Origin: Corylus avellana
Lineage: Eukaryota > Streptophyta > Magnoliopsida > Fagales > Betulaceae
DNA length: 64,000 nucleotides
Direction: 5' to 3'
NCBI RefSeq assembly: GCF_901000735.1
Contig: NC_081546.1
Coordinates: 6,329,001-6,393,000, forward strand
The translations under genes were made by a program, and so were the position numbers. How positions within the stretch are numbered: the first letter of the stretch is position 1; each line of letters opens with the position of its first letter. The notes under the pieces were generated by a model. It did not search any database. It was not told the DNA's origin and saw only the letters and a list, made by a program, of their open reading frames with translations. Positions 3,114 through 50,400 of this stretch are shown piece after piece.

Positions 3114-4919
3114 TTGGTTTGTTATTAGATAATTGACCCTTTTTTCATTGTTTTAATTCATATAACCCTCTCTCAATATTTGCTTGAAAAAAAAAAGGGG
3201 GCGAGGGATTAATTTTTTCAGATGCTCTCCGCCATCCAAGATGACGATTTTTTGTTGGCCATGCTCACATCCGCATCCAATGCGCTACATGTTAAATTGA
3301 TGTAAAGGTGATATTTGCTTGACCCACTGACCAAATAAAAAAAGTAAAAACATAGGGTCTGTTTAGTAATGAGCTTTGGTAAGTAGTTTTTGGTTTTAAA
3401 ATGAAAGTACATAGAAATTTAAAATTTTTTGTATGAAAAAAATGTAAAAATTTTGTTTTGTCGTAAATTTTTTATTTAATAATCATAAAAAGTTATCAAT
3501 GTCGTATAAAAAATAAGAATTTTTGGAAGTTGAGAAAATGTAGGAGATATATATATATATATATATATATAAAAGGTAGAAGAAGTGGGATATCGTGATC
3601 CATGTGATGGCAAATAGTTTTCCCATTTCCAAGACTTCTGTTTTAGTGTTTTTACCGTAGGATTGAAGAGTCTTGCAAAGATTATGCCATTTTCTATGAC
3701 TTCTGTTTAGTGCTTTTACCGTTTTATGTGTTTCCTATCGAGAGGACTGGGTTAATTTTTAACTCATTTTCTATTATTTTTTTATCTTTTTTGAACTAAT
3801 TTTCAGTGTATTAATTCACTCGCCCCTTTCTCAATATTTGTTTTTATTTATTTATTTTTTTTGTTTTAAATCAACTTTTATAAAGTAGCTTTTGTAAGTT
3901 CCAGCTCATTTGCTAGTCTAGAGACTAGAGTATCTTTTATGACTTTAGACCACATAATCCAAGAATCATTAATTTTTCATAGACTCGAGAAACAAACAAT
4001 AATCGTTCCCCGGGCCACTTCTCTCACAAATTCAAGGTAATTAGTATCAGCATTATTTAGCGGGTCAATGGTTCATTTGTCGTTTCCACAACTTGTGTTT
4101 TGAAAATTCTAAGACAATTTATAATTCTTTTGGTTAACCTTTGGACCAAGGTTTCACATGTACGTGATACAAGACAATAGACAATTTCTAAATCCCACTT
4201 TTTTTGTTTTTTGTAAGATTCTAAATCTATCCCACTTTGGTTGCTTTACAATATTACAAATTCATACCTTATATAATGTATGTTCTCCCCAAGTCTTGGC
4301 AATAGGAAAACTGTTGTTTCCCATCATATGGATCACGATGCTCTCACTTCCTTTAATTTGTTTGAGCAAAACTATATATCAAACTATTTATCTTTAATTA
4401 GCTCCAGCATCTTTTCTGTGAGCTTTGTTTTAGTGCTTTTACTTCTTTATGAAGCCCTTATTGAGAGGATAGGGTCAATTTCGTACTATTTTGTTGTGCT
4501 TTTTGTACTCTCATTTTCATTTTAAATTTGTTATTGGAGAGCATACTTTTTTCTTTTTGAGTATTTTAATTCCCATATGTGTCCCTTTCTCAACCATCCA
4601 AGATGACAAATTTTCTATGGGTAATGCTCACATCCGTGTCCACTGCACTACACGTTAAATTGACGTAAATTAAGGTAGAAGAAGAGAAGTGGGGTTACAG
4701 AAGTTGGTGAATTTATTTGTCATAATTAATCTAATAATATATTCGAATTTCTATTAAATGAATTACGGTTTGTCCAGTTTATTTGAACGGAAGAATATAT
4801 ATTCAATTAATTGTAGTGAAGGGTTATTTTTGCCCTTTTTAAAAAATTGGGCGGACAAAAATAACCATATATTACAACTAACTAGATACATCAAGAAGAA
4901 GATGAATGAAATATGGTAG
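2200..4919. other. Degenerate WAK-locus repeat block, left flank of the Mutator-like element
   Basis: AT-rich sequence made of segments that recur at 10.4-15.9, 20.6-25.1 and 27.4-30.1 kb. Shared landmarks are a ttttagtgcttttac segment (about 2440, 3640, 4430), a caccgcatcca-like 'chance of wall' segment near 3240, and a segment beginning near 3900 that runs to about 4400. I see no intact gene. A (TA)n tract lies at 3065-3110. The block ends at the insertion site of the element starting at 4929. Confidence 0.5.
2750..2861 (-). pseudogene. Relic of WAK EGF-like exon (exon 2)
   Basis: Read on the minus strand after an acceptor-like ACGCAG, the frame gives D-I-H-E-C, then N-N-C-T-K, a stop, then CFNIKGNYTCGCPN and a second stop. 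The pattern DI.EC...NC......CFNI.GNYTCGC is the calcium-binding EGF repeat of the intact WAK gene (exon 2, 18952-19098). The stops and the lack of exons 1 and 3 make it a pseudogene fragment. Flanking intron-like sequence is also kept. Confidence 0.75.
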
Positions 4920-4928
4920 CTTTTATAA

Positions 4929-5225
4929 GAAAAATGTTAAAGGCAGAACACAAACCCAACTTAAAACCAATTTCTCTCCTACGTGACATTTTTTTTTTTA
5001 AAAAAAATAAAAGTTGAAATTTTAAACTATTCAGATCTTCTTTTCCCCTTTCAGATCCAAACATCCTCTCTCAGTCTCTCGCTCTCCCTCCCGCGCTCAT
5101 CCTCTTTCTCCTCCGGCGAGTTGTTCGGCCACTGGCGAAGCTGTCCGTACGTCGCTCCTGTCTCTCTCACTCCGGCGCAAGGTTCCGTCTCTGTCTCTCT
5201 CACTCCGGCGACGTCTTCGGCCACC
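4929..5225 (+). repeat. Left terminal inverted repeat of the Mutator-like element
   Basis: Begins GAAAAATGTTAAAGGCAGAA and shares a long AT-rich part with the right end (both contain cacaaacccaacttaaaacc). This is followed by a C/T-rich part with phrases such as ctccggcgagtt and cactccggcgacgtc. It would act as promoter and leader for transcripts reading inward. The SKP1 homology begins directly at its inner edge (5226). Confidence 0.8.
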
Positions 5226-6990
5226 GAGTACTCCAAGAAGCAGGTCGAGGCCCCAAAAGCAGCCGCCGCGTCCGAAGAACGCTCCACCTCCGACGACGAC
5301 GACCTCAAGGCCTGGGACGCCGAGTTCGTCAAGGTCGACCAGGCCACCCTCTTCGATCTCATCCTAGTGTGTCTTCTTCCTTATAAACTCAAATCCCCCT
5401 GTTAGATCTTTTTATTATTGATTTTTTTTCTTCTAATTAGGGTTTTGGTTTTGTTTTCTCGGCTTCAGTGTCTTTGATGTGTTTTTGTTTGGTTGGTGAG
5501 AAATATTCAGGGGGAATAGTAAATAGATTTGAGTGCTTCCGTTGTTTATTGACCAAACAACCTTTAAATATGTTATGGCGTTGAAGTGGCATGAGAAGAA
5601 GTAATTAATCAAATAAGAACAAAGAGAAAGCATGAGAAGAAGTAATCAAATAAGAACAGAGATTGCTGAAGATGTCAAATGAGACGGTTTTGTTTATGAT
5701 CGAAATTTTATTTCTCTTTGATTTATTCATCATACTATTATAATATATGATGACCCAAAAAGGCATGCACATGTATGTATCGGTTGTCCAAGTTTGTTCT
5801 TTTTTAATAATTTTTTTTTTCTTTCAATTTTCTCGTTTATTTGGTCTCTAACAAAGTGAGATTTTCCCGAAAGTACTTATATTTGCAAAGACTATGTATA
5901 GAACTTGGTTTGAATTGGTGAGCGGAGAAAATGATAATGAAATATTCCAGATAATGACCTCTTCATATCTCAATCTTTTAGCATTGTTGGGTTAATATAT
6001 ATATATGTTAGATTGGTGGCTGAAGCAAGGCATGAAGGAATTGCCAATGGCTTCATAAAAGTGTTTGAAGTGTATGGTATAAGTGTGCTTGCAAAAGTGA
6101 AGCATCCAGTATCAAGGAATTGTCTCGAAATAGTTGCTAGTGTTTAAAGTGTTTGGAATGGCTGCAATGCACTGGCAATTGGCAAGTGCTATTATTAAGT
6201 AATGAATCGGAACATGGACTTATGGGTCTTTGAAGTATTAGGGTCATCATCTAGGTGAATTTTTGGCTAAGTGAATATTGCTTTTATCAGGCTTGTTACT
6301 TTTTCCAGTCTTTTATTTAAGGAATTCGTTTGGTAGCTCTATCTGTTTTCTTTTGTGAAGTATTGCTTCTGTAAGCGTAGGCTCTCGTTTGTTTTTTTCT
6401 TTTTCTTTTTTCAATTTTGAATGTTCTTTCCTTCTTCTCCATAAGTGGGTGTTTATCTCATTTACTCTATTTCTATTTAGGTTGTGCCCCTCTACGCCTT
6501 ACCTTCTATGTCTTAATAAGATTGAACTACTTTTCCAAATACAATATGGTTTATGCTTATGAATTGGTTGATGACTAAATTTATCAAATTATGGGATTTC
6601 TCTCCTTGTTGAAGGTCCAGTTAGTAGCACAAGTTTTTTGGACCTGCAATTTGTAGATCATCATGGCGGTAGATTTTTTTTTTTTGGGTGTTCATTGAAA
6701 GGTGTTTGTTCTTGCATTTAACATGCACTAAACTACTATTGCATTATATGAGTAACTTCAACCATATTCACACACCTTAAATTTCAATCTCACTTTGGAG
6801 TATGTCTGATTGGCAGGCTGCAAACTATCTGAACATCAAGAGCTTGCTGGATTTGACTTGCCAGACAGTGGCTGACATGATCAAGGGCAAATCTCCTGAG
6901 GAAATCCGCAAGACATTCAACATTAAGAATGACTTCACACTAGAGGAAGATGAGGAGGTTCGCAGGGAGAATCAATGGGCCTTTGAGTGA
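5226..6990 (+). pseudogene. SKP1: Captured 3' part of an SKP1 (SCF ubiquitin-ligase adaptor) gene
   Basis: SKP1 links cullin-1 to F-box proteins in SCF ubiquitin ligases. Homology starts at 5226 in the middle of the gene (EYSKKQVEAPK). It runs through the acidic linker and DLKAWDAEFVKVDQATLFDL to a donor after 5366 (cta|gtgtgt). It resumes at 6817 (ttggcag|gct) with [20 protein letters not shown], then [19 protein letters not shown] and the terminal NQWAFE, stop at 6988-6990. The 1450-bp intron sits where plant SKP1 genes usually have theirs, so genomic DNA was captured, not mRNA. The N-terminal BTB/POZ half that contacts cullin-1 is missing and replaced by terminal-repeat sequence. The frame is open back to a stop at 4962-4964 but contains no ATG before exon 2, so a normal protein start is absent. 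The C-terminal F-box-binding half has no stop or frameshift. Confidence 0.88.
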
Positions 6991-8095
6991 AGATCCAAAA
7001 TAAAGCACATCTGTTTTTTTGTGGCTTATGTTTCTCTTTTGTGCTGCCAAAAGGGGATGTTGTTTCTACCTATCTAAGACTTCTTAAGATATTAACTTAC
7101 TATTCTGGCTGTTACTATTGTAGACAATGGTTGTTTTGCTCAAACCTTGGCCCCACTTCCCTCCCTCTCCATTTATTTTTCCCATGATGTTCAATGGATC
7201 TTTTTTTTTTCTATGTTAATATGGTATATGCTGTTTTCATTCAGTGCTTTGTCCTTGTGATTCTTTTATCTACAATTTAGTCTTTGTTAGATTAAGGCGA
7301 TTCACCATTGACTTTGCTAGAGGGGATCCAATTGAGCTTTGGTTGCAGAGGTCGTGAGACAGGGGGTTGTCTCATTATGCTATGTCCAAAGAGATTTCTT
7401 CAGTGGGTTGTTTATAATAGCTCTATCTAATGAGCCAGATGTAGAATTTTGTAGGTGCTTCATTTATATTGCTATGTATATGCTCCTTATCTCATCCTAA
7501 CATTTATTTGATATTATCTTCCAATGATAATGTGCTAAAGAGAAATGATCAACCTTAACAGCATCCAAAGTGGTTAAACATCATCATAATCAAATCCGTT
7601 TTTCTGGTTTTAGCCTTCTGCAATCAATCATGCCTTGTATCTATCAATCTTCTTACCATTTGCAGTCAGTGTTTCTCTTTTCTTTTTCTTTTGTTTTTTT
7701 TTGGTGCACACTAATTGTGGTCAGGATTATACTCCAAACTTATTTTGCTCAACAAGATACGTGCACAAAAGACATTAATAAGCACGACAAAATTTAGATC
7801 ACATCATCACATAAAACGCGAAAAAATCAATGAATGGAATTTTCATCATTGAATACAAATTAAACATCGTATGATTAAATACATAAACAAGTCCGGCGGG
7901 TATGATAACAATGACTTCAATGAAGAAGAAGAAATTCTCATGCTTTCTATACCAGATCTTTAGCCAAAAATTGTGTCCTTTCCTATGTAATTGCTACACT
8001 ATAGAGAATTTTTCCCGGAAAATAATCAAACCTGCAGCAAATGCTCCAACATCTTAAAGAAAGAGTTGTCTAAAGGAAATTGTTTTGTTCACACT
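6991..8095. other. 3' flanks of the two captured genes inside the Mutator-like element
   Basis: No coding sequence recognised. The left part, T-rich and beginning aataaagcac just after the SKP1 stop, is probably the captured SKP1 3' UTR. The right part lies downstream of the MFSD12-like stop on the minus strand. The boundary between the two captures lies somewhere in here and cannot be placed by eye. Confidence 0.4.
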
Positions 8096-9062
8096 CTATT
8101 CCAACAGTGGCTCCATCATAGGTTTCGAAAAAGGGGTATGGAGTTTCATGGTGTATGTAACTGCCACCCCAACTAGTGAACAAAATGGTGGTATGAGACC
8201 CAAACCAATCCTTGTAACTGAAATATAGACATGTATTGGACTGGTCAAATGAACTGCTGGAGAGGAACCTGCAGTTGAGCATATATGAAGTTAAATAGAG
8301 TTTAAATTGAGAACTATTATTGGCATTTGAGTAAGAACTCATGAATTTTACACAGAAAAAAAAAGGGAAAAAAAGTGTTAATGTTACTGATTGAGTCTGC
8401 AAATTACAAAGACAACAAATAACAGAGGAATTAATCTGGAGATTAGAAGAAACTACATGTCCGGAAAAACCAGTATCAAACTTCCAAACATTTGATCAAA
8501 CTACATGGCACATATACTGGTTCTTGGTGTTTTCCACCGTTTTGGTTCCAGATTACAGAATCTTTACAGAAAACACCAAGAACTAGTACACAGGAATCAA
8601 AACAGCACTAACATTTGAAACAAAAACAACAGCCCAGCAAACATTTTACAAGCCCAACAAATAGAAGCCTTTATGTTTTCAGTGGTCAACGAAAAACAGT
8701 TTTGGGCTGACCACTATCTTATGCTTCTCCAAACACGCAAAAAAGGAAAAAAAAACAAAAAAAAAGTTTTCCAGACAATCTTTTATGCCGAAATAAATGG
8801 GGCCGTAATACTTGAATAATCATGGGTGTGCAGAATCTGCAGATACACACCCAACAAAGTACCTAGTATCATATGAGAAAATCCTTTATGTTAAAGCTGT
8901 TGCAGAGAATGAAGATTCAGATGACATACTTTGAAACGACTGAAGAACATACAAGGCAAGCCCACATGCGATTTTGTCCAAGAAGCTCAATGATCCACAC
9001 ACAAATGCACAGCCGCCAAGATTCTCACCAATTAGAACACTTTGCATGCTTACTCCAGTCAC
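8096..9062 (-). pseudogene. Captured last two exons of an MFSD12-like major facilitator transporter
   Basis: Exon A (8930-9062, minus) follows an acceptor ATAACAG and reads VTGVSMQSVLIGENLGGCAF, then a short span with GSLSFLDKIACGLALYVLQS, to the donor caaa|gtatgt. Exon B (8096-8268) follows CTGCAG and reads SSSPAVHLTSPIHVYISVTR, then IGLGLIPPFCSLVGVAVTYT, then MKLHTP to a TAG at 8096-8098. The phases agree (133 bp leaves one base; 173 bp completes the frame). The SLSFLDK and VTRIGLGL segments fit the C-terminal membrane helices of plant MFSD12-type transporters as I recall them; a search would confirm. Both exons are open, but the N-terminal helices are absent. The fragment points away from the right terminal repeat, so a transcript begun there would run through it. 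Confidence 0.72.
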
Positions 9063-9954
9063 CTGTTATATTTGAGAAAAAGTTAAAATTTAAAAAAGAA
9101 CCAAGATGAAAGTAATTACAAACGAGATCATATGCAACTAAGATGGTTTTTGTTTCTTTCCTATATATATATATTTGGGTTTTTGGTCATGCTAGGATTT
9201 GAACCGCTCTTCATGTGGTTGTTATTTACCACCTATCATTCTATCTACTGCAAATTGGAATTCAGCTCCCATACTATGCATTATAAATTACATTGACCGA
9301 AACTACAATAAAGTGTCCACACCTCTCTTCTCAATATTGCCAAAAAAAAACATTTGCACAAAAGACCATAACCAACCTAACCGAATGTACTGCAATTGAT
9401 GTAGAATACTCTTACATTGTCATCTAGTAAGTTTCTTTTCCCCTGATAAAAGAAAATATTTTTTTTATAACAAAAATTTTATTTTACTAATGTTAAATCC
9501 AGAAAGCAACAATCAACTTTGAAACAGTCCAAAAAACTGAGATATATAGAAAACCAAAGTAATAACAGAGATATTCATATTGGTACATTTTTATTCACAA
9601 TTCATAGTGTTGTTACTAAAAGAAATAATGCAATACAAGGACTTACATTTGACAAACCGCAGAGAATAATGCAAATGAGAAATCTGACCAAAAACTATCT
9701 TTCTCGGGCATGAACAAACACAGCCTCAACCAACAGAAAAAGAAGTAAAAACCTAAACCCTAAATAATATTCAAAAAAACATAAATCTAAACCCTAAATA
9801 CACATAAATCTAATACACTATTCTAGCACCCACTACACATAAATCAAAAAGCCCTAGATTTTGAATGTGGATGAGAGAGAGGGATTACTTACCACCGGTG
9901 GAGGAGAGAGAGAGAGCCTTCGGCTTCCCCGGAGTGAGAGAGAGACAGGAGCTT
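9063..9954. other. Unassigned interior of the Mutator-like element
   Basis: This would be intron or leader for an inward minus-strand transcript. Two strong donor-like signals lie on the minus strand: GTG|GTAAGTAAT at about 9888 and AAT|GTAAGTCC at about 9647. The first would end a leader exon made of terminal-repeat sequence. I recognise no further MFS exon. Confidence 0.35.
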
Positions 9955-10380
9955 CGCCGGTGGCTGTAGACGTCGCCGGAGTGAGAGAGACAGTGGACGG
10001 AACCTTGCGACAGACGGACAGCTTCGCCGGTGCCGAAGAACTCGCCGAAGGACAGAGAGGGTGAGCGCGGGAGGGAGAGCGATGGAGTGAGAGGATTTCT
10101 GGTGGCCGAAAAACTCGCCGGAGGACAGAGAGGGTGAGCACGGGAGGGAGAGCGAGGGACTGAGAGGGGATTTCCGGTGGCCGATGAACTCGCTGGAGGA
10201 GAGAGGGTGCGCGCGGGAGGGAGAGCGAGGGACTGAGAGAGAACTTTTAGAATTCTGAAAATTTGACTTTTACAGAACTTTGATTTGGTTTTAAAAAAAT
10301 ATATAATAAAAATAAATAAATGCCATGTAGGAGAGAAGTTGGTTTTAAGTTGGGTTTGTGTTGTGTTTATATCAAACCTC
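9955..10380 (-). repeat. Right terminal inverted repeat, with internal 76-bp tandem repeats
   Basis: This is the inverted counterpart of the left end; its reverse complement begins GAGGTTTGATATAAACACAA. It is longer than the left end because a unit of about 76 bp (starting actcgccggagga, containing gggagggagagcg) is repeated almost three times between about 10032 and 10245, against once in the left end. Confidence 0.75.
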
Positions 10381-10785
10381 CTTTTATAAAGAATCTTTTA
10401 TGACTTTAAATCTAATAATTCACGAATCTTTTTTCATAGAGAGAAACAAACCATAATCCTTTCCCCCCACTTCTCTGTCACATTTTAGGTAATCAGTCAC
10501 GTCACAACATTATTTAGTGGGCCAGGGGTTTCTTTGTCTTTCCACAACTTGTATTTTGAAAATTCGATGAGCACATATGCATAAACTTTGTTGACGAGAT
10601 ATTTTTTTAATGATGTGGATAATGAGATCGATCGAGTTCAAAAGAAGAAGCGGATAATGAGAATAAAACTTTTTAAACAAAGAAGAAGCAACCAGAATCA
10701 AGACATATAAATTTAAGAGTAATGATATAAGGAAGACTAGATCATCCTTCTAAATATGATGTGACTTTTAAAAAAAAATATTGAA

Positions 10786-10850
10786 ACACCATCTTTTCTC
10801 CCGTCCCCACTTGGGACAACCACATGTATAATTGCCTTTTATGTTGAAAT
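10786..10850 (-). pseudogene. Partial relic of WAK EGF-like exon
   Basis: The minus strand reads FNIKGNYTCGCPKWGREK, the second half of the WAK EGF repeat. The first half has been lost at a breakpoint near 10850, where unrelated sequence begins. This relic keeps the usual GCPK...GR.K spacing that the intact gene at 18952-19098 has shortened. Confidence 0.65.
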
Positions 10851-11682
10851 AGGGGTGAAACCAGGATTTTGAGTGTGGGGGGACAAATTTCTGGTTATAC
10901 TTAGGGAGCTAAGGAATTTTTTTGGGTCTGCGGTGGTGTCCCTATGGGGAGCCGAACGATCGAAGCTACCAAATACGTGAATGTCATTTTGTAGTTGTAT
11001 GGTGGGGTCCTGAGGCTTGAGTTTTGCCTTGTGAAACGAGGGAAGCTTTGAGAGTTGTAGAGGAGGTGTTTGGACGAAGAGAAACTGAAATGAGAGGGAA
11101 AGATACAGGGGAGAGTAAGTTCTCCCCTCAATGATAAATGGTAAAAGGAATAAAAAAGAGAACTGCTTTAGGTAAGGTTAAAGCACATGTTGAGGGTTAG
11201 CCCATGTCTGCATCCCTTGCATTGTGGTTCGAGTAGGATTGAAGAGTCTTGCAACAATTATACCATTTTCTGTGACCTCTGTTTTAGTGCTTTTACCATT
11301 TTATGTGTTTCCTATAAGGAGGACCGGGTTAATTTTTAACTCATTTTCTACTAATTTTTTTTTTTTATCTTTTTTAATCTTTTTTGAAAAAGATTAAAAA
11401 AGATTTTTAATTTTCAGTGTAATAATTCACGCACCCATTTCTCGATATTTGGTTTTTTTTTTTTAATTTTTTTTTCAAAAAAAGGTAGGGGGTGGAAGTG
11501 AGGCCAAATGATCTTCGTCATCCAAATGACTATTTTCTGTGGGCCATGCCCACGTCCGCATACAGTGACACTACACGTTAAAGTGGCCACTTAAAAAATT
11601 AAAATAAAAAAACTTAAAGAAAGGCGTGATTTCTGGCCCAACCCCGCAAATAGTTAATGAAAGTTAGATTACATGGAAGAGT

Positions 11683-11912
11683 GATAATCATAATACCAGC
11701 ACGAATGATGTTTACTTACGTTGGTGTATTATAATATTATTATATTATTAAAATAAAAATTAAACAGTAATATTAAAAAATATATATATTATAAAAGACA
11801 ATTGTAAGTAAACAGAACAAATTTTGAACAGTAATATTAAAAAAGTTATATTATAAAATACACCAGCATGAGTGGACAATTACTCACGCTGGTGTTATAA
11901 TTATTATTACTC
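11683..11912. mobile_element. MITE-like element with long terminal inverted repeats (copy 1)
   Basis: Left end GAGTGATAATCATAATACCA; the right end reverse-complemented begins GAGTAATAATAATTATAACA. Both continue with a ccagc(g/a)(t/c)ga-type phrase, and the centre is almost pure A/T. A paralogous copy lies at about 22223-22462. Target duplications are not clear by eye. Confidence 0.6.
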
Positions 11913-12852
11913 GACTATAAAAGGTGGAAGTCTACAAGATCGATCAAAATAAATAAATAATTTATTTTTTTTATAAAAAATGAAAAGGGTAGAAGAAGTG
12001 GGATATCGTGATCCATATATGTGATGGGAAACACTTTTCCCATTGCCAAGACTTGAGGTCAATGAATGATCGGCAGAAGCTAGTCAAAGAATGAACGGCA
12101 AAGGTGACCGACGAACTCCGGCTGCCTTCTAACTTCAGTGAAGACAGGGAATAAAACGCAAGAGAGAATGCATACGAGGAGGAGGTGGGATAATGTGAGT
12201 GAAAAAATAATTTACGAAAATAAAAAATAGAAACCATTTTATGTAGCTTAATCGAATCTTTTTTCATAGAGAGCAACAAACAATAATCTTTTCCCCCAAC
12301 TTCTTTCACACATTCAAGGCAATCAGTCGTAGTATTATTTAGTGGGCCAGGGGTTCCTTTGTCATTATACAACTTGTGTTCTGAAAATTCTAAGAGGTAG
12401 CAGACCCGCGCATAAACTTTGTTGACGGAATATTTTTTAAGAATAATATTAGATATCATCTTTTTATCTTCTTAAAATTGATGTACTTTTTAAAATTATT
12501 ATTTAATTAAAATTTAAATATAATTTATTTAAAATTTAATGATAATTTTAGATGTAGGTAATGAGACTCGAAAAGAAGAAGTATGAATTTGATATAAAAC
12601 TTCTCTCATGTGAATGATCATTTCTTGAAAATGGTGGTGCGGGGGAGGGATTAATTTTTTGAAATGCTATTCGTCATCCAAGATGTCGATTTTTTGTGGG
12701 CGTCAGCATCCAGTGTAGTACACGTTAAATTGACGTGAAAGGCCATTTCTGCTTGACCCACTTAGTTTTCCAATTAACAATCATAATTAATCTAATAATA
12801 TATGCGAATTCCCATCTCCTATTAAATCACATCAACTTTTATAAAGTAACTT

Positions 12853-14167: not shown

Positions 14168-15955
14168 TGATAAGCGCATGCATAATTCAGAGAATCTTTT
14201 TTCATAGAGAGAAACAAACATTAATAATCGCTCCCCCCACTTTTCTCTCTGACATCCAAGATACGTAATCAGTATGATAAACATTATTTAGCGGGTTAAT
14301 TAAGGGTTCATTTATCTTTTCCACAACTTGTGTGTTGAAAATTCTAAGACAATTTATAATTCTTTTGGTTAACCTTTGGAACAAGGTTTCACATGCACGT
14401 GATACAAGACAATTGACAATTTCTAAATCCCACTTTTTTTGTTTTGTATTTTTTTTTTTTTTTTAAGATTCTAAATCCCACTTTGGTTGCTTTACAATAT
14501 TATTACCAATTCATACCTTATATAATCTATATTCTCCCCAAGTCTTGGCAATAGGAAAACTGTTGTTTCCCATCATATATATGGATCACGATGCTCTCAC
14601 TTCCTTTAATTTGTTTGAGCAAAACTATATATCAAACTATTTATCTGTGGGATTACACTGCACTAGCTACACGTTGTTAAATTGACGTAAAGGTAGAAGA
14701 AGTGGGATTACAGAAGTTGGTTGATCTCGACTCTTCAATAGCAGAATTTACTACAATCATAATTAATCTAATAATATATTCGAATTCCCATCTCCTATTA
14801 AATCACATCGAATATGAATAAAACATAGTAGCTTTTATAAAGAATTTTTTTTTTTTTTTTTTTTTTTTTGACTTTAGAGCTCATAATCCACGAATCTTTT
14901 TTCATAGAGAGAAACATACAATAATCCTTTCCCCCCACTTCTCTGTCATATTTCAGGTAATCGGTCACGTCACAGCATTATTTAGTGGGCCAGGGGTTCC
15001 TTTGTCTTTCCACAACTTGTATTTTGAAAATTTTAAGAGCACATATGGATAAACTTTGTTGACGAGATATTTTTTTAATGATGTGGATAATGAGATCGAT
15101 CGAGTTCAAAAGATGAAGTGGATAATGAGAATAAAACTTTTTAAACAAAGAAGAAGCAACAAGAATCAATACATACGAATTTAAGAGTAATGATATAAGA
15201 AAGACTAGATCATCTTCTCAAATATGATGTGATTTTTAAACGTAATTATTGAAACACCATCTTTTCTCCCATCCCCACTTGGGACAACCACATGTATAAT
15301 TGCCTTTTATGTTGAATTTTGAAACACTATCTCGTTCAATTATTGAGAGTTTGATCCCCACATTCGTCATCAATGTCTGCATATCAACCCCATACTATAA
15401 TCATAATGAAACACGATTAGGAAAAATAAATTATTATTTATCTTCTACTTTTTCGATACGACGATACCCCTTACTTGCAACCCCTCTTTTTACTGCTTTA
15501 TGTGGCCCTTATTGAAAGGACCGTGTCAATTTTTAACTAATTTTCTATTATTTTGTTGTATTTTTTGCACTATAATTTTTGTTTTAAGTTTATTATCGGA
15601 GAGTCGATCTATTTTCCATTGTTTTAATTCATGTTACCTTTTCTCAATATTTGCTTTAAAAAAAAGGGGGGGCAAGGGATTATTTTTTCAGATGCTCTTC
15701 GCTATCCAAGATGACGATTTTTTTGTGAGCTATGCTCGCATCAGCGTCCAATGTGCTACACGTTGTTAATTAAATTGATGTAAAGGCAGTTTTTGCTTGA
15801 CCCACTTACCAAACAAAAGGCAGTGGATTCTCCAATAATTGAAAGGTTCCTGAAACCTGCAAAGATGTACAAGTTTGGACTATCTTCATTTCTTCTCTCT
15901 CTATGGAAAATTATTTCTCGAAAATGACTCAACTTATAAAAGATACTTTGGACTA
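14168..15955. other. Remainder of duplicated block copy 1
   Basis: Matches 23391-25160. It contains two related sub-blocks, each beginning with a cttttttcatagagagaaac phrase (about 14188 and 14896), a poly-T expansion at 14846-14870, and the EGF relic at 15255-15376. No functional gene. Confidence 0.5.
15255..15376 (-). pseudogene. Relic of WAK EGF-like exon
   Basis: After an acceptor-like ATGCAG, the minus strand shows a D-I-D-(D)-E-C start, then a stop in place of the NC motif and another stop before the CF motif. A short extra segment shifts the frame before the KGNYTCGC part. It is followed on the upstream side by intron-1-like sequence, as in the intact gene. Confidence 0.7.
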
Positions 15956-17434: not shown

Positions 17435-20171
17435 TTACATGCCCACATTCGTCGGCCAACACCCAAGGCTAATGTTACATATGCTACTTCCACAGTCTAC
17501 GTCAGCGTGAGGTTTCTGACCACCAAGCAAGTCATGTTCCGCCTGTTTTTCCAGATTTGATTCATGAGCATTAACCGATGAATGCGTCTTTGTCTTGCTT
17601 AATATTCCTTCTAATTCATTTTTCAATTTCTCCATAGTAGGCCTCTCATCCCCTTCCAATCTTAAGCACATCTTTACAAGTTTAACGACTTCCTTGATTT
17701 GCTCCTTATTCCCTTCTTCATCTATATCCTTATTCCCTTCTTCATCCACACCCTTCCCTTCTTCATCCACACCCTTATTCCCTTCTTCATCTATATCCTT
17801 ATTCCCTTCTTCATCCACATCCTTATTCCCTTCTTCATCCACACCCTTCCCTTCTTCATCCACACCCTTATTCCCTTCTTCACCTATATCATAACCAAGA
17901 AGTTCAGACAATAGAATCTCTTTCAATAAAGAAAGAAAATTATTGAAAAGAAAATGCATAACAACATTTCTTCTTTTCTTGGGCCTAGTGGATGGAGACC
18001 TAGTGGATGGAGCTACATCTGTTAGTAGCTCCGCGAGGACCATTCTTCTTTTCTTGGACCTAGTGGATGGAGCTACATCTGTTAGTAGCGCCGCAAGGAC
18101 CACTCCAAAGCTATAAACATCACTTTTCTTCGTCAATTGGTTCGTCAGTAAATATTCAGGATCCAGGTATCCATGAATTCCTTGCACTACAGTATCTACG
18201 TCATTTTGATCATGGGGAACCAATTTTGAAATTCCAAAGTCGGAGATTTTCGCAGTGAAATTATCAACAAGCAGTATGTTTGAGGGCTTGACATCTCCAT
18301 GAATTATATCTAAAGAGTGTAGATACGATAGTGCATCCGCTGTTTCTACAGCTATTCTTAGATAGGTTTCCCATCGTTTGGTGGATGTGTTGTCTTCACC
18401 ATGTATATACTCAAAGAGTGTACGTTCTGAGACAAATTCGTAGACTAGCACAGGAACTTCCGTCTCTAAACAACAGCCCAAGAGTTTGACAACATTCTTA
18501 TGGTCAATTTCAAAGAGTTGAATAATTCCCTTAATGAACTGGTTAGCTTGGTCTGGATCCACTGTCTTGGACTTCTTGATAACAATTGTATTATCTGGTA
18601 AAAATCCTTTGTAACCTCCTTTGCCAATGATCCTACGCTTGTCATAGTTGTTGATAGCCTCCTTCAACTCTTCAGAAGTAAAGATTTTGGCATTTTTAGC
18701 GGTGGATCGTTGGAGATGCTTTTCTAAGTCTGAACCCCCATTTTGGCGAAAGAAGTTTACTTTAAGCTTAATAGATATTCTTGCCTGGAATTCCAAGTAC
18801 AGCCACCAGCTACCCCCAAGTGTAGAAGTTAAGCCAATGCCAATCCCTGAACTTGGAAAAGTCGAAACCTTATGGTCAAGATTTAAAGTTTGTGTAATTA
18901 ATTGCATACATGATATTATCTAAAGTTGTACAAAATGGTAAATTTACTTACCAATGACAACCCCAATAATTGCTGGTGGGACATCGTCTACAGGACAACC
19001 TTCACCATCTTTACAATCACCACATGTATAATTGCCTGGTATGTTGAAACAGTGCTGGTTCGTGCAATTATGAGTCCCTTCCAAACATTCGTCAATGTCT
19101 GCACATCAAGTGAGGAATGCAGGCCAACCACATAGTATAATCATAATTAATGAAATACATGCATACATTGAAACGCGAAGGGGGGAAATAAATGTCATAA
19201 AAATAAAGTGATATTGAATTCAGGAAACAATTATTGATCTTTTACTTTTTTTCGATGTATAAATTACCTTGGCAACCCCCAAGGCCTTGGAGGAGGTATG
19301 GGTTCCCTCGGTAACCTTGCTTGCACTGGCAACGGTACCCGCCCAGGATATTAATGCATTGAGTAGTAGTAATATCCTTACATGCGAAATTCGGTTTGTT
19401 CCGAGCTTCTTCACATGTGAGATTCCCAACTGCCCAATCAAGCACCAATGGAACCGTTTGGTTGGTATAATTTTGGAGATAAGTGGCGGAGAAGTTGAAC
19501 TGGCCTTTCTCGACAACAAAAGCATAGCCGCAAGGATTGAAGTTCCGAACATTTTCGTGATTATTAAAGCTCTGTACTTGAATACTAATATTTTTGAGTC
19601 CATACGGAAACCTTACCTCGCAACACCCAACGCCAGAGCAAAACCCATTCCCCACATTGGTAGGGGTAGGGCATTGGGATGAGCACCCAATCTTGAACTC
19701 TTCTCCATTTTGGTACCCACTGAGGTATGCGATAGTGTCACAGCCGATAACAGTGAACCTATTTTTGCTGTTGGAAATGGTGTACTTGGACAACCTGATC
19801 CTGGGTTTGTTCGTGTAATAACTGTTGTTGGATTGGTAACACTCTCGGCCTACCCAATTCATGACAAGAATCTCATGAGTGTCGGTGGATATATTTCTTA
19901 CACGGATATTACCTATCATTGGTGAATTTGGTGTCGAAGAGTTTTCGCATGTGATACGAAAACTGTCATCCAGATAGCAGCCCTCAGTGAAGCCAAATGG
20001 GAATGGAATTTCTACATCTCCACAGTGCGTGGGGCAGACAGGCTTGGCCTTAGTTGGAATACTTGCTGTTGTTGTTGGTGCTGCTGCTGCCTCCGCCGCC
20101 ACAATTGCAAATATTATGATCACTACTCCAGGCAGTGCTATGATCTGCAAAAGCTTCCCACTCAACCCCAT
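17435..20171 (-). CDS. Wall-associated receptor kinase-like protein with degenerate kinase domain
   Basis: Three exons: 19268-20171, 18952-19098 and 17435-18846. Splice phases agree and give 820 aa. The ATG is at 20169-20171. Order: signal peptide (about 1-28), cysteine-rich galacturonan-binding WAK domain starting CPTHCGDVEIPFPFG (46-60), EGF-like repeat ending GGCQ, calcium-binding EGF repeat DIDECLEGTHNC (302 on), membrane helix about 344-371, kinase domain about 420-760. The family sits in the plasma membrane and senses cell-wall fragments. Oddities: the glycine loop reads GKGGYKG (425-431) with four residues missing against the usual GQGGYGTVYKG; VAIK is shortened to IVIKK; the helix-C Glu position is Gly (FIKGII, 454-459); HRD is HGD (533-535, also found in other WAKs); DFG is kept. 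A 20-aa segment is duplicated (600-639) and a DEEGNK minisatellite fills 673-731. It may be a pseudokinase receptor or a decaying gene without a stop. Confidence 0.85.
17703..17890 (-). repeat. In-frame minisatellite inside the WAK kinase domain
   Basis: Eight tandem units of 21 or 24 bp, each encoding a variant of (V/I)DEEGN K(D/G) or VDEEGKG. The mix of two unit lengths in the order 24-21-24-24-24-21-24 suggests duplication of a multi-unit segment. All units keep the reading frame. The flanking peptide (LLGYDIG...EQIKEVVKLV) matches a single DEGNKEQI segment in ordinary WAKs. Confidence 0.9.
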
Positions 20172-21663: not shown

Positions 21664-22222
21664 GAAACTGCTTTAGGTAAGGTTAAAGCATATGTTGAGG
21701 GTTAGGCTGGTTAGCCCATGTCCGCATCCCTTGTATTGTGGTTCGAGTAGGATTGAAGAGTCTTGCAACGGTTATACTATTTTCTGTGACCTCTGTTTTA
21801 GTGCTTTTACCATTTTATGTGTTTCCTATAAGGAGGACCGGGTTAATTTTTAACTCATTTTCTACTATATTTTTTTTTTTTTTTTTTTTTTATTTTTTTA
21901 TCTTTTTTGAACTGTAATTTTCAGTGTATTAATTCACGCACCCATTTCTCGATATTTGTTTTTTTATTTTTTTCAAAAAAAAAGGGTAGGGGGTGGAAGT
22001 GAGGAGTGGGGGGCCGGGAAGGGATTAACTTTGTCAAATGCTCTTCGTCATCCAAATGACTATTTTCTGTGGGCCATGCCCACGTCCGCATCCAGCGACA
22101 CTACACGTTAAAGTAGCCACTTACCAACAAAAAATTAAAATAAAAAAAAAAACTTAAAGAAAGGCGTCATTTCTGGCCTGACCCCGCAAATAGTTAATGA
22201 AATTATGAAAGGCTAGATTATA

Positions 22223-22462
22223 GGGAGGAGTTATAATCATAATACTAGCGTGAATGGTGTTCACTCACGCTAATGTATTATAATATTATTATATTATAAA
22301 AAAAAATTAAATAATAATATTAAAAAAATTATATATATTATAAAATATAATTGTGAGTGAAGAAACAAATTTTGAATAGTATTATTAAAAAAGTAATATT
22401 ATAAAATACATCAGTATAAGTGAACAATCATTTACGTTAGTGTTATAATTATTATTACTCGA
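22223..22462. mobile_element. MITE-like element with long terminal inverted repeats (copy 2)
   Basis: Paralogue of 11683-11912, somewhat more diverged at its ends (gagttataatcataatacta at the left). It shares the AT-only centre. Confidence 0.55.
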
Positions 22463-24452
22463 TTATAAAAGGTGGAAGTCTACAAGATCGATCAAAATAA
22501 ATAAATAAATTTAAAAAAAAAAAAAAATGAAAAGGGTAGAATAAGTGGGATATCGTGATCCATATATGTGATGGGAAACACTTTTCCCATTGCAAAGACT
22601 TGAGGTCAATGAATGATCGGCAGAAGCTAGTCAAAGAATGAACGGCAAAGGTGACCGACGAACTGCGGCAGCCTTCTAACTTCAGTGAAGACAGGGAATA
22701 AAACGCTAGAGAGAATGCATACGATCGAGAAGGAGGTAGGATAATGAGTGAAAAAATGATTTACGAAAATAAAAAATAGAAACCATTTTATGTAGCTTAA
22801 TCGAATCTTTTTTCATAGAGAGAAACAAACAATAATATTTTCCCTCAACTTCTCTCACACATTCAAGGCAATCAGTTACAGCATTATTTAGTGGGCTAGG
22901 GGTTCCTTTGTCTGTTTTGAAAATTCTAGGAGCTAGCAGACATGCGCGTATAAACTTTGTTGATGAAATATTTTTTTAAGAGTAAGGTTAGGTATCATCT
23001 TTTTATTATTCTAAATTGATATAACTTTTAAAATTACCATTTTATCAGAATTCAAGTATGATTCATTTAATTATAATTTTAGATGTGGATAATGTGACTT
23101 CAAAAGAAGAAGTATGAATTTGATATAAAACTTCTCTCATGTGAATGATCATTTCTTGAAAAATGGTGGTGCGGGGGAGGGATTAATTTTTTGAAATGCT
23201 CTTCGTCATCCAAGATGACGATTTTCTGTGGGCGTCAGCATCCAGTGTGGTACATGTTGTTAAATTGACGTGGAAGGCCATTTCTGCTTGACCCACTTAG
23301 TTTTTCAAGTAACAATCATAATTAATCTAATAATATATACGAAGTCCCATCTCCTATTAAATCACATCAACTTTTATAAAGTAACTTTGATAAGCATATG
23401 CATAATTCAGGGAATCTTTTTTCATAGAGAGAAACAAACATTAATAATTGTTCCGGTCCCTCACTTTTCTCTTTGACATCCAAGGTACGTAATCAGTACG
23501 ATCAGCATTATTTAGCGGGTTAAGGGTTCATTTATCTTTTCCATAACTTGTGTGTTGAAAATTCTAAGACCATTTATAATTCTTTTGGTTAACCTTTGGA
23601 ACAAGGTTTCAAATGTACGTGATACAAGACAATAGACAATTTCTAAATCCCACTTTTTTTTCTTTTTTTTTTTTTTTTTTTTAAAGATTCTAAATCCCAC
23701 TTTGGTTGCTTTGCAATATTATTACAAATTCATGCCTTACATAATCGATATTCTCCCCAAGTCTTGGCAATAGGAAAACTGTTGTTTCCCATCATGTATA
23801 TGGATCACGATGCTCTCACTTCCTTTAATTTGTTTGAGCAAAACTATATATCAAACTATTTATCTGTGGGATTACACTGCACTACACGTTGTTAAATTGA
23901 CGTAAAGGTAGAAGAAGTGGGATTACAGAAGTTGGTCGATCTTGACTCTTCAATAACAGAATTTACTACAATCATAATTAATCTAATAATATATTCGAAT
24001 TCCCATCTCCTATTAAATCACATCGAACATGAATAAAACATAGTAGCTTTTATAAAGAATCTTTTATGACTTTAGAGCTCATAATCCACGGATCTTTTTT
24101 CATAGAGAGAAACATACAATAATCCTTTTCCCCCACTTCTCTCGTCACATTCTAGGTAATCAGTCACGTCACAGCATTATTTAGTGGGTCAGGGGTTCCT
24201 TTGTCTTTCCACAACTTGTATTTTGAAAATTCAAGAGCACATATGGATAAACTTTGTTGACAGGATATTTTTTTAATGACGTGGATAATGAGATCGATCG
24301 AGTTCAAAAGAAGAAGTGGATAATGAGAATAAAACTTTTTAAACAAAGAAGAAGCAACAAGAATCAATACATATGAATTTAAGAGTAATAATATAAGGAA
24401 GACTAGATCGTCCTTCCAAATATGATATGACTTTTAAAAGAAATTATTGAAA

Positions 24453-24574
24453 TACCATCTTTTCTCCCGTCCCCACTTGGGACAACCTCATGTATAATTG
24501 CCTTTTATGTTGAATTTTGAAACACTATCTCGTTCAATTATTGAGAGTTTGATCCCCACATTCGTCATCAATGT
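24453..24574 (-). pseudogene. Relic of WAK EGF-like exon
   Basis: Nearly identical to the relic at 15255-15376, including the same stops and extra segment, so both descend from one already broken exon. The side facing exon 1 keeps intron-1 sequence and then breaks off where exon 1 should begin. Confidence 0.7.
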
Positions 24575-43226: not shown

Positions 43227-44444
43227 TTATGCCTTTGGTGTTCCCAGTCTCTTCCAACTCATCCAATGAATTCGAGATTCATTTGATTGGTGTCCCCACC
43301 AAAACTTTTGCATCAGTGAATTGATTTCCAAACATAGGGTTTTTGGAAGCAAAAAAACGCTCATGCTGTATGTAGAAATGACTTGTATGGCCGCTTTAAG
43401 AAGAATTTCCTTGCCTGCATGGGACAAAAATTTGTGCTTCCAATCTTGTAGCCTTGACCAAACCCAATCCTTTATACTATGGAATGCGCTAATTCTTGAT
43501 TTTCCCACTAGAACAGGCAATCCCAAATACATATCGTACCGTTTGGAAGATGTGATCCCTGCTACTCTCAAAATTTGTTCTTACATTTCGTGGGTGTATT
43601 CCGGCTAAAGAAAATTCCAGTTTTCTCCTTATTCATTCTTTGCCCTGATGCTTGCTCATGTGTTTAAGATTCCTGATAACCGATCCCAATGATTCAAATC
43701 CGCCTTGCAAAATAAAAGGCTATCGTCTGCACAGAATAAGTGATTAATTCAAGGCCCGTATTTAGAAGTTGGAACATCCATTAGATCACCCTCATCATCT
43801 ACTCTTGTCAGTTGAGAACTCAGGGCTTCGGCACATAGAAGGAATAGGTAAGGGGAAATGGGATCCCCTTGCCGAATCCCCCGTGTAGACCAAATTTTAC
43901 CGTTAACCCATACAGAGTAGTTTGCAGTTCGGACACACATCATTATTAGCTTCACCCACTCCCTTGCAAACCTCATCTTGTACATAACCGCCTCCAAAAA
44001 ATTCCACTCTATCTTGTCATAGGCTTTGCTCATATCTAGCTTAATAGCCATGTATCTTTTCTTTCCGTACATGCATGCATGCATTGTGTGGAGGAATTCA
44101 TATGCCGCCAAAATGTTGTCTGTAATTAATCTCCCCAATATGAATGCTCTTTGATTCGGGGAAATAATTTCTGGCAATAGAACTTTCAACCTATTTGCAA
44201 GCACTTTGGAAATAATTTTGTAGAGAGCATTACAAAGGCTTATAGGTCTATAATCAGAAACACAAGCAGCAATTGTTTTCTTCGGTATAAGCGATATGTA
44301 AGTGAAATTCAAATCTGTATTATGAATACTAGAATTAAAAGTAGTAAAGATCGCTTGGCAAACCTCATCTCTTACAATAGGCCAATTCTCTTGGAAGAAT
44401 CTAACTGAATACCCATCCGGCCCTAGGGCCTTCACGGGGGACAT
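43227..44444 (-). pseudogene. LINE reverse transcriptase, broken
   Basis: The right part (43749-44444) has MSPVKALGPDGYSVRFFQ, SLIPKKTIAACVSDYRPISL, KLDMSKAYDKIEW and GIRQGDPISPYLFLLCAEAL, the RT motifs in order. A TGA at about 43757 interrupts just before HLFCADDSLLFC, which carries the catalytic pair of Asp. The left part (43227-43571) has YLGLPVLVGKSR and the HKFLSHAGKEILLKAA segment after the RT. The enzyme cannot be made as one protein. Confidence 0.88.
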
Positions 44445-45119
44445 CTGGAAAATAGCTTCCCGAATTTTGTCAGTAGTGAATGTCTAAGTGAGGTGCTTGT
44501 TTATTGCTTGAATAATTCGGCCTTCTACTCCTTGGAGGCAATGACTCATATCTCCTGTTGGTTCCAAAGAGAACATCTTGCTAAAATATTTTATGAAGGC
44601 TTGTTGGATCTCCTCCTGCTTGTCCCACGAACAGCCCATGCATCCGCAATCTTGTCTATCACATTTCTCCTTCTCCGTTCATTGGCACATGCGTGGTAGT
44701 ATTTTGTGTTCCTATCTCCATTCTTCAGCCACAATTCTTTTGATTTTTGCTGCCACCTTATATTTTCATGCTCTAACAACATATGGATGTCCTCTTTAAG
44801 GAGACCCACTTGTTGCCCATCATAATCGTCCTCTTCCCTTTGCAACAAAACCAACTGTTCAGTTTTCTTCTTTATCTCCAATTCGGCTGATTTTAGTGTG
44901 TTGTTATTCTAGAGGGTCAACTCCTCCTTACGAGCCTTCAATCTTTGGAACAAGAGCTGCCACCTACTCCCTTGAGAAGCCTACACCCGCCATACCTTTC
45001 TAATGATGGCTTTGCACTCCTTATGTAAAGCCCAATGAGCCTCATATTTAAAAGGACGTCTAATTCGCCGCCTTCCAGTTGGCCCATGCAAACTCCATAT
45101 GATTGGAGCATGATCAGAA

Positions 45120-47443: not shown

Positions 47444-50400
47444 CTAGGTACACGTAGGCAAATTAGGTGGAGGTGGCAACATGCTTGTTTCTGCCGTTGT
47501 CCCATTCCTCACAATGAGGACAGTGTCCATACCCCAGCTAGCGTGCCTTTCCAAATGACAGTGCATAAACCATACCCCTGAAAAATATGCATCATCCATG
47601 TATTAATACACATATATATAATTAGAATATAAATTAAATAATTAAATTTATTTTTGGATTTGACCGCCGGTTAGCGGATATTGAAACCTAAAACGTACGG
47701 CACCGCATAACTGCTTTTCAAATATGGGCCTTTTGGAGATTTTTTTTTTTGGATCTACCTTCCTCTTTTTAGGGCCTATTTTAAATAATATTAAACACCA
47801 AAACCAAGTTATTTTGGTATATTATTATTATTTAGGGTTTAGGGTTTATATATATATAACAGTATGTTGTTAGCATTTTTCCCAAGATGTTAGCTAATGG
47901 TTATTAGACGGTTAATAACTGCTTGCATGTATCCAAAAAAAAAAGAAGAGGGAGATCGAGAAAAAGATTTAAGTACCGGGATTATCGGCAACAAATCTAA
48001 TGGCAGCCCAACCATCTTTAGGAACTCCGATGGTGTTAACCTCCGGGGGATCACTCAAATTGTAACCATCCGGGGAGGTGGTGTTGTCGAAATTGCCATA
48101 ACCAGTCCCGACCAAGTAGAAGCTAAAACCATGAAGATGCATCGGATGGTTTTCTGCATTCCCTATGTTTGTCCCTTGGAAAACTATTTCAATTTTTTTA
48201 CCGTAATCTACCATCTTCACCTTTGTTCCTTGGCTCGGAAGTAGATATGTGTCAGCGGAAACTCCTGTGTAGTTAAAAACAAAAGGAGGATAACCTGGAA
48301 AATCATCGTCATAAACCGACAAATTCCTGCATGCAAAGAGCGAAAAACATTTATATTTAGGCATGTATATGTGAGATTCACTTATTTCTGCTTTACAATA
48401 ATGACAACAATAAAGGGAAATATCTATTATAATGTAAATTAAATGATTAAATTTATTAATTAATCATTAATTTAAGCTTATGAGTTAAGTGGTTATTTTA
48501 TATGGTATTCGAGTAAAGGTCCTGGATTCGAATTTTGATAGAATAAATAGTTATTTAACATGGTATCGGAGTGTTATAGTATAAATTGAAGGCTCTATTT
48601 GTTTTGGCATACAATAATTTTTGAAAAATGTTTCCATATCTTTCGATGTTTGGTGCGACGAAAAATAATGGTCAATGGAAAATATTTTCAGTTTGACCGA
48701 AAAAGCTTTAATTTCAGTAAAATGGTTAATTTCCATTTTTTAAAGCCGTAAACCATTTTTGGAGTTTTACCTTTTCATTCTCAAATCAATGGATACAACT
48801 TGGACGTTATCGAGACCCCGCTAGGACTTCACTGGGCCATCGTCGGGATCCATTCACGACTCCCTAAGACTCGCGCTTGGGAAATAGCCGGTACTCTATT
48901 AGGACTCATTGGTACTCGATTGAGACTCAGTCGAGATATTATCGTAATTTAAAGTTTAATATGAGTGAATGAAAAAATATATATAAAAATATTTGTGATT
49001 TTCAGTATGCGTCAAACACCTAAAAATGTTTTTAAGGAAATCATTTTTCAAATAAATGTTTACCACTAAAACATTTTTGAACAAAAAGTATCTTACGTCA
49101 AAACAAACACTGATTTATAACTAATATTCATTTATAACTATAAGCTAGCTTGAGCTTTTGATATAAGTAGTGATTTAACAATATACCTGTAGTACGCCTG
49201 CAGTATGTCAATCGTCGGGGTCACGAAGCTTACGTTGTTTAAGCTAGCAGCTAGCCTATTACCATTGGGGCCATCACACGAAACTTGATCACAAGGCAAT
49301 TGATTAACAGAAACTGTAATGACAATTCTTTCATCAAATTCTTGTGGAACATCAATCGGGTGCTCGGTACTTGCCAATGATCTTACGCGAGTTGTGAAGT
49401 TGTCTGCAGCATCCTTGTCGGTGACATTAGGAAGAGAAGGATAGGGAGGAGAGGATGGAACTGTATAATTGCCTGTATACTTGAGAATCGCTGAAGTGTT
49501 GGAACTGTCGAATGGGGCGCTGGAGTCGAAGAAAGGAGTGGCAGCCATGTAATAATAACTGGGTGTCTGGTTTGCTGTGAGCAAGACATCCATTGTTTGT
49601 CCTGGTGTTATCATGATGTAATTGGTGGAGATGGGCTTTATGTATGAACCATCTTGTCCGACAACTGTGATGTTGTGTTGTGCGATTCCAAAGAACATTT
49701 CCTCGTTCATCACTGCATTTACTATACGGAGAAGATATGTCTTGCCGAATTCGACTGATAGACTGTATGATGTTTCTGCAACATCAAAAATATGATATGG
49801 TATTGTATAATACTATATTTCATATCAGGAAAAAGAAAAAGGAGGGAGATAAAGGCAACTAATTGACAAAGTAATATACAATAGAAATCTACAGTAAGAA
49901 AATAAGATTTAATAAGCATGGTCCCATGATATTCCATTCTAATAATACCTTGGTAAAATTTGAAACAAGAATAAAATAAAAAGATTGATCGAGAAAGAAA
50001 GCTAAGTTCCACTTTGCCAATCAACGAAGAGCAACGTACTCATTGGTGGCTTGGCATGTCATGTTATGGTGGAATTGTTCTACTCCTACTACTTGTTAAA
50101 GTAAAGATTAAGTAATTAAATTTACCTCTTCCTATTAGCTTAAACTTTTAATATAACTGGTAATTTAACATGGTATCAGAGCTTAACTAATACCATGAAG
50201 AAACTTGTGAGCTCAACACATCTCATAAAACCGGTTCAATATGAAAGGGTTGCCCACTCCTTATAAACATGCACATAATCTTGTCCACAAGCAATGTATA
50301 ATTATTCCTCAACACCCTCTCTCACGTGCATACCAGTATTTTTTCTAATTCTTGTCACATGGTAAGTAGTATGGACCCCATTTATCCTGTGATAGGCTTT

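Follow-up and report, generated by a model that had tools for sequence, protein, structure and literature searches.

The window analysed here is a 64,000-nucleotide stretch of the Corylus avellana genome (contig C6, positions 6329001-6393000), and the genome searched comprised 369.9 Mb in 12 contigs. Near the start of the window, at positions 4929-10380, lies an element that carries the 3′ parts of two host genes, SKP1 and a transporter-like gene, one reading inward from each end. It is flanked on both sides by an exact 9-bp target-site duplication (TSD), CTTTTATAA, at 4920-4928 and 10381-10389; by chance, two fixed ends would share an exact 9-mer with a probability of ~9e-6 given the window composition, and 6e-5 given flanks of 80% AT. 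With the element taken out and one TSD kept, the joined flanks align to two uninterrupted paralogous segments of the window, at ~24047 (24047-24055, plus strand) and near 14.8 kb, and both segments contain one copy of CTTTTATAA. The first 30 kb of the window include several sizeable direct duplications, at 10381-10848, 14864-15316 and 24047-24514, and also at 11161-12852 and 21666-23387. The element tips are GAAAAATGTTAAAGGC at the start and CAAACCTC at the end, and alignments of copies define terminal inverted repeats (TIRs) of ~298 bp on the left (4929 to ~5226, plus strand) and ~488 bp on the right (~9893-10380), in which 228 of 302 aligned columns are identical. These lengths fall within the 100-500 bp typical of Mutator-like elements (MULEs), as does the TSD within their 9-11 bp. 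An initial annotation of this DNA had described the exact duplication, one uninterrupted site and long inverted ends; the first two are accurate, and the inverted ends are real, but the arms are unequal in length and the right arm has a 73-bp tandem repeat inside the TIR.

Inward of the left TIR, which matches other places in genome searches and is apparently shortened by the SKP1 capture, SKP1 parent DNA spans 5219-7503 on the plus strand. Its parent is locus L024 on contig C8, which has its own ATG and a complete exon 1, encodes a two-exon protein with both Pfam Skp1 domains, and extends past the captured piece. The first segment (5219-5524; 95% identical to L024 4822-5126) includes the end of exon 1, from ~5227, a splice donor after 5370 and the start of the intron. 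The remaining segment (5794-7503; 94% identical to L024 5126-6891) includes the rest of the intron, exon 2 (6817-6990), in which the frame matches the Pfam Skp1 dimerisation domain and ends at the native stop at 6990, and 3′ flanking sequence. Between the two, within the intron, a 269-bp stretch (5525-5793) is absent from L024 and repeated at several places on contig C2.

The other fragment, at 7494-9142 on the minus strand, is the 3′ part of a gene at L048 on contig C1 (89-96% identical to L048 6435-4227); again, the parent extends past the captured piece. It meets the SKP1 piece at ~7503/7504 and retains the two final coding exons (9062-8930 and 8268-8096), including the native stop, which lies 1.1 kb from that of SKP1. 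Between copies, a comparison of the C1 exons that leaves out L026 finds the two-exon frame open both in the window and in L021. We take this gene to be transporter-like from the look of its translation. Pfam searches with 154 or 333 residues joined from the exons of the C1 parent returned no family, and a PDB sequence search with the same parent matched no solved structure; MFSD12, the name given in the initial annotation, therefore stays a provisional label, although the two minus-strand exons and native stop described there are as reported, as is the plus-strand SKP1 half with its intron.

Between the C1 fragment and the right TIR are 88 bp for which no source was found (9143-9230), a minus-strand sequence that recurs on the right side of L026 and, wholly or partly, at a few other places (9231-9617; search query positions 274-660), and family right-arm sequence inward of the leader, identified from copy alignments on the minus strand, which starts with a splice-donor-like GGTAAGT (9618-9892). 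The right TIR with its leader (9893-10380, minus strand) contains the tandem repeat, located at 10027-10239 by a repeat scan.

The ends of the element define a family. A genome search with window positions 4900-5300, in which 40 of 176 candidates were scored, gave at least 51 matches to these ends. Among the loci fetched from the genome (L numbers), exact 9-bp TSDs flank eight of the ten elements with both ends in view, namely the window element, L021, L022, L023, L028 (where the TSD is exact only with the element start set one base inward of the computed call), L029+L049, L030+L043 and L033+L042; L027 and L034 have both ends in view and no matching 9-bp duplication. The eight TSDs all differ (CTTTTATAA, TTTTTAAAA, TTTTTTTAA, AATATAAAA, AATGAGAAA, ATTAAACAG, ATTAAAACC, TTTGTATAT). 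The closest counterpart of the window element is L021 on contig C5, a full two-gene copy with its own TSD, TTTTTAAAA; the two are 98.1% identical, with a Kimura two-parameter (K2P) distance of 0.0115 over 5436 sites. In L022, a family element (7634-4337) with its own TSD, TTTTTTTAA, is nested in the right terminal repeat of another copy.

A MULE transposase is encoded by relatives that share these ends. L037 contains an open frame of 809 codons with Pfam FAR1, MULE and SWIM domains, and frames in L036 and L038 resemble it. We ran tblastn with the family transposase against 18 sequences, including the window, fetched as stretches that do not span every element whole. Matches covered a stretch of at least 300 residues in four of the 18 (L037, joined to L041; L029; L032; L038), with the matches in L032 and L038 running off the end of the fetched sequence; remnants of 49-76 residues were found in five, and nine, the window among them, gave no match. 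None of the four transposase-bearing relatives was seen with both an intact frame and both ends: L029+L049 has both ends and an exact TSD, ATTAAACAG, with one stop codon in its transposase frame, and L037 has the open frame and lacks the right tip. In all four, SKP1 exon 1 lies behind the left TIR and reads toward the transposase frame.

We conclude that the element is very probably a Pack-MULE, that is, a non-autonomous Mutator-like element whose family also has transposase-bearing members, and that its gene tails were captured, trimmed and moved. By the definitions in passages of PMC3310237 and PMC4858842, the window copy is a Pack-MULE, as the initial annotation had it: its host fragments have parents on C8 and C1, and it has no transposase match. 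Like other Pack-MULEs, it combines a 9-bp TSD, long TIRs, host gene fragments with introns and identifiable parents, and lacks transposase fragments; in rice relatives, too, several parents can stand behind one MULE-derived gene, according to parts of PMC4858842. It differs in that both arms contain gene 3′ tails, which converge, and in having close relatives that share the captured junction and carry a transposase frame. As a representative of an established type, the element is clear and well documented, and captured host domains in transposase-bearing MULEs, above all ULP1, are already known.

The transposase-bearing members invite comparison with MuDR, the autonomous Mutator element of maize. 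In both, a gene reads inward from each TIR, and one of the two encodes a transposase (here in L029 and L037). They differ in the second gene, which here is a truncated SKP1 and not mudrB; the window copy, with no transposase by tblastn, resembles MuDR in layout only. Passages of PMC3310237 describe the two MuDR genes as convergent and driven from the TIRs, and in KI-MULEs the captured domain lies opposite to mudrA (parts of PMC2528002). We therefore reject convergence as an unusual trait, which the initial annotation had considered it to be: since SKP1 exon 1 faces the transposase in the four transposase-bearing relatives, as the second gene does in MuDR, the convergent plan is already found in those members. 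The KI-MULEs (KIU) and the ULP1-bearing MULEs of melon, rice and grapevine likewise combine a transposase with a captured host domain, as described in sections of PMC2528002 and PMC13317346; KI-MULEs are without TIRs and their ULP1 domain is reported to be old and conserved in eudicots, whereas the SKP1 piece here is truncated and its noncoding parts differ from the parent by ~3%.

The simplest reading of the SKP1 piece is that the family would have captured it once, early, because the junction is common and the copies share states against the parent. An identical TIR-SKP1 junction is present in 12 of 16 aligned left ends, the other four (L023, L036-L038) being deleted across it, and at three SKP1 sites 15/16, 15/15 and 16/16 copies share a state that differs from the parent. 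Eleven copies (L028-L038) switch from the SKP1 intron to other DNA at one shared point, at ~5496 in window coordinates, and six of these (L029, L031, L033, L035, L037 and L038) regain a short SKP1 3′ piece (7135-7222), as if middle exons had been exchanged between kept ends.

Locus L026, also on contig C6, retains a longer form of the join between the two genes. There, the C8 segment runs into the 3′ end of the gene neighbouring SKP1, which has Pfam subtilase and fn3_6 domains, as far as parent position 7242; it is followed by 51 bp of other DNA and then by the C1 segment from its position 6508. The shorter join at 7503/7504 is common to the window, L021 and L022. Given the subtilase tail and filler in L026, the tail-to-tail join is most simply a later internal deletion, and not the capture event for which it had been taken. 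We regard L026 as a witness to the longer state and not as the ancestor itself, because no left end is seen in the fetched stretch and the start of the first C1 exon is lacking.

SKP1 appears to have been captured first, because it is more widely spread and because the two parts of L026 have diverged unequally. The SKP1 piece occurs in the 16 aligned left ends, and the C1 piece, in whole or in part, at no fewer than four places besides its parent: at least the window, L021, L022 (156 bp) and L026, with 40 of 72 candidates scored. L026 differs from the parents at 36/1206 sites in the noncoding SKP1 part and at 4/824 sites in the C1 part (Fisher p = 2.7e-5). The separate parents and this difference accord with two independent captures, as proposed originally. 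Because L021 has a 9-bp duplication of its own, at least one move of the two-gene unit must have followed its formation. Several observations pull the other way. For the window copy alone, the difference is not significant (33/1326 versus 12/839, p = 0.12); distances between parent and element include change in the parents; and in a tree of the SKP1 piece (264 columns), in which support is weak, the two structural types are not clades.

The copies, compared with one another, show the following course of events. The family picked up ~2.4 kb of C8, comprising the SKP1 3′ half and the neighbouring subtilase tail, most simply once and early, and the TIR-SKP1 junction then spread to further copies, some of which (L029 and L032, for example) have a FAR1/MULE/SWIM transposase frame. 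The right arm of one copy gained ~2.3 kb of C1 from the 3′ end of the transporter-like gene; both captured lengths are pieced together from several copies. The subtilase tail and filler were lost, most simply by an internal deletion, and movement of the shortened two-gene unit produced the complete copies, each flanked by a 9-bp duplication, on C5 and, in the window, on C6. Family transposase presumably moved the window element in trans, and capture may have occurred via template switching during repair. In the FoSTeST model of multicopy Pack-TIRs, which was described for animals, capture with short microhomology or filler is likewise followed by amplification (parts of PMC8277862). Parents, an intermediate, the final unit, a sister copy and empty sites all survive in a single genome, which makes the order of capture and the subsequent trimming directly readable.

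It is also conceivable, though in our view unlikely, that the two pieces were joined by recombination among nested or neighbouring elements, each with one capture, and not by a second capture into an SKP1-bearing copy. Family elements do nest, as L022 does within the right end of another copy, and pieces are shared among copies in mosaic fashion. However, no element with the C1 piece and without SKP1 was found among the matches listed (40 of the 72 candidates scored), and recombination leaves the first entry of host DNA unexplained.

Whether joined by capture or by recombination, both tails lie behind sequence that resembles a leader exon. A splice-donor-like GGTAAG is present on the right arm in 11 of 11 aligned rows. 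Of the four left ends free of SKP1, L005 and L007 keep the donor, L004 is without the GT and L008 differs. On the strength of the right-arm rows and of L005 and L007, a leader exon with its donor seems to belong to the full TIR at either end, and on the left this part seems to have been replaced when SKP1 was captured. The leader of each arm may be able to start inward transcription, and the donor of the right leader may be able to splice to the captured acceptor. A broader idea, which we offer tentatively and consider doubtful, is that the TIR serves as a portable first exon, with a probable promoter, a non-coding leader and a splice donor, and is present in full form at both ends, such that captured 3′ gene halves become splice-ready inward units; the element would then collect gene tails and not heads, and transposase-bearing members would hold a captured tail in the place of the second gene (mudrB or VANC-like). 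If true, a leader-plus-donor TIR acting as an exon would provide a testable reason why captured gene tails might become transcripts.

The initial annotation proposed a two-transcript cassette that could give overlapping antisense 3′ UTRs. In a stronger, functional version, the TIR leaders would drive inward chimeric transcripts, and the truncated SKP1 and transporter products, or their antisense overlap, would be selected. Promoters within Pack-MULE TIRs have been reported (passages of PMC3310237), and the window copy keeps its splice sites and native stops. However, we found no usable in-frame ATG in either leader: the single ATG on the left starts a 27-codon frame that does not run into SKP1, and the single ATG on the right starts one of 11 codons (read by eye). 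The first in-frame ATG on the left lies in SKP1 exon 2 and leaves 37 residues, and that on the right leaves 96. Moreover, L028 has an early stop in SKP1 exon 2, L035 has a stop in SKP1 exon 1, and the exon 1 start is deleted in L036-L038. The stops and the absence of start codons incline us to regard the gene tails as probable passengers without a selected product, as does the finding of the Oryza study that few MULE-derived genes show constraint (parts of PMC4858842).

Evidence for selection, and against passengers, comes from SKP1 exon 2, in which the frame is kept in six of seven element copies and nonsynonymous divergence (dN) is below synonymous divergence (dS) in 7/7 parent-copy comparisons and in 18/21 pairs of copies, alongside the open C1 frame in the window and L021. 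Part of the parent-copy signal stems from the parent's own branch. The order is reversed in three of the 21 pairs, window-L022 (dN 0.053, dS 0.031), window-L023 and window-L026, and each comparison draws on 2-10 differences in 56-57 codons, a number too small to distinguish drift from weak constraint. A selected cassette seems very improbable to us. Least credible is a single capture of both tails, or a fusion already present in the host genome before capture, which the direct abutment of the two fragments in three copies would suit but which we reject on the intermediate structure of L026, with its subtilase tail and filler between the pieces, and on their unequal divergence, and which also conflicts with parents on separate contigs and with the different spread of the two pieces among the matches scored.

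Two features set this case apart: how completely its history is preserved, and the gene tails in both arms behind leader-like TIRs. Among the papers listed in a literature search for Pack-MULE together with SKP1, no title or abstract opening describes such an element, although one may still be published. According to parts of PMC4858842, transposase-bearing MULEs were removed before a survey for captured genes, and part of the packFinder description files transposase-bearing elements as autonomous; gene fragments are shown here inside a class that at least one large survey excluded.

Other members of the family carry further cargo, by Pfam: a PPR-DYW fragment in L023 (2682-3377), a PPR fragment in L033 (435-830) and a WD40 fragment in L037 (5458-5802). 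All three loci also hold SKP1 exon 1 sequence. Repeated capture is thus a habit of the family.

An Rfam scan of the window at gathering thresholds gave no match. Elsewhere in the window, 17435-18919 is a kinase frame (Pfam Pkinase), within which a run of ~24-bp repeats (17703-17890) codes for an acidic DEEGNK-type repeat inside the Pkinase domain match. A reverse transcriptase frame at 43749-44483 (Pfam RVT_1) is probably the remnant of a long interspersed nuclear element (LINE), and 49138-49812 and 62096-62578 contain multicopper oxidase and cytochrome P450 exons (Pfam).

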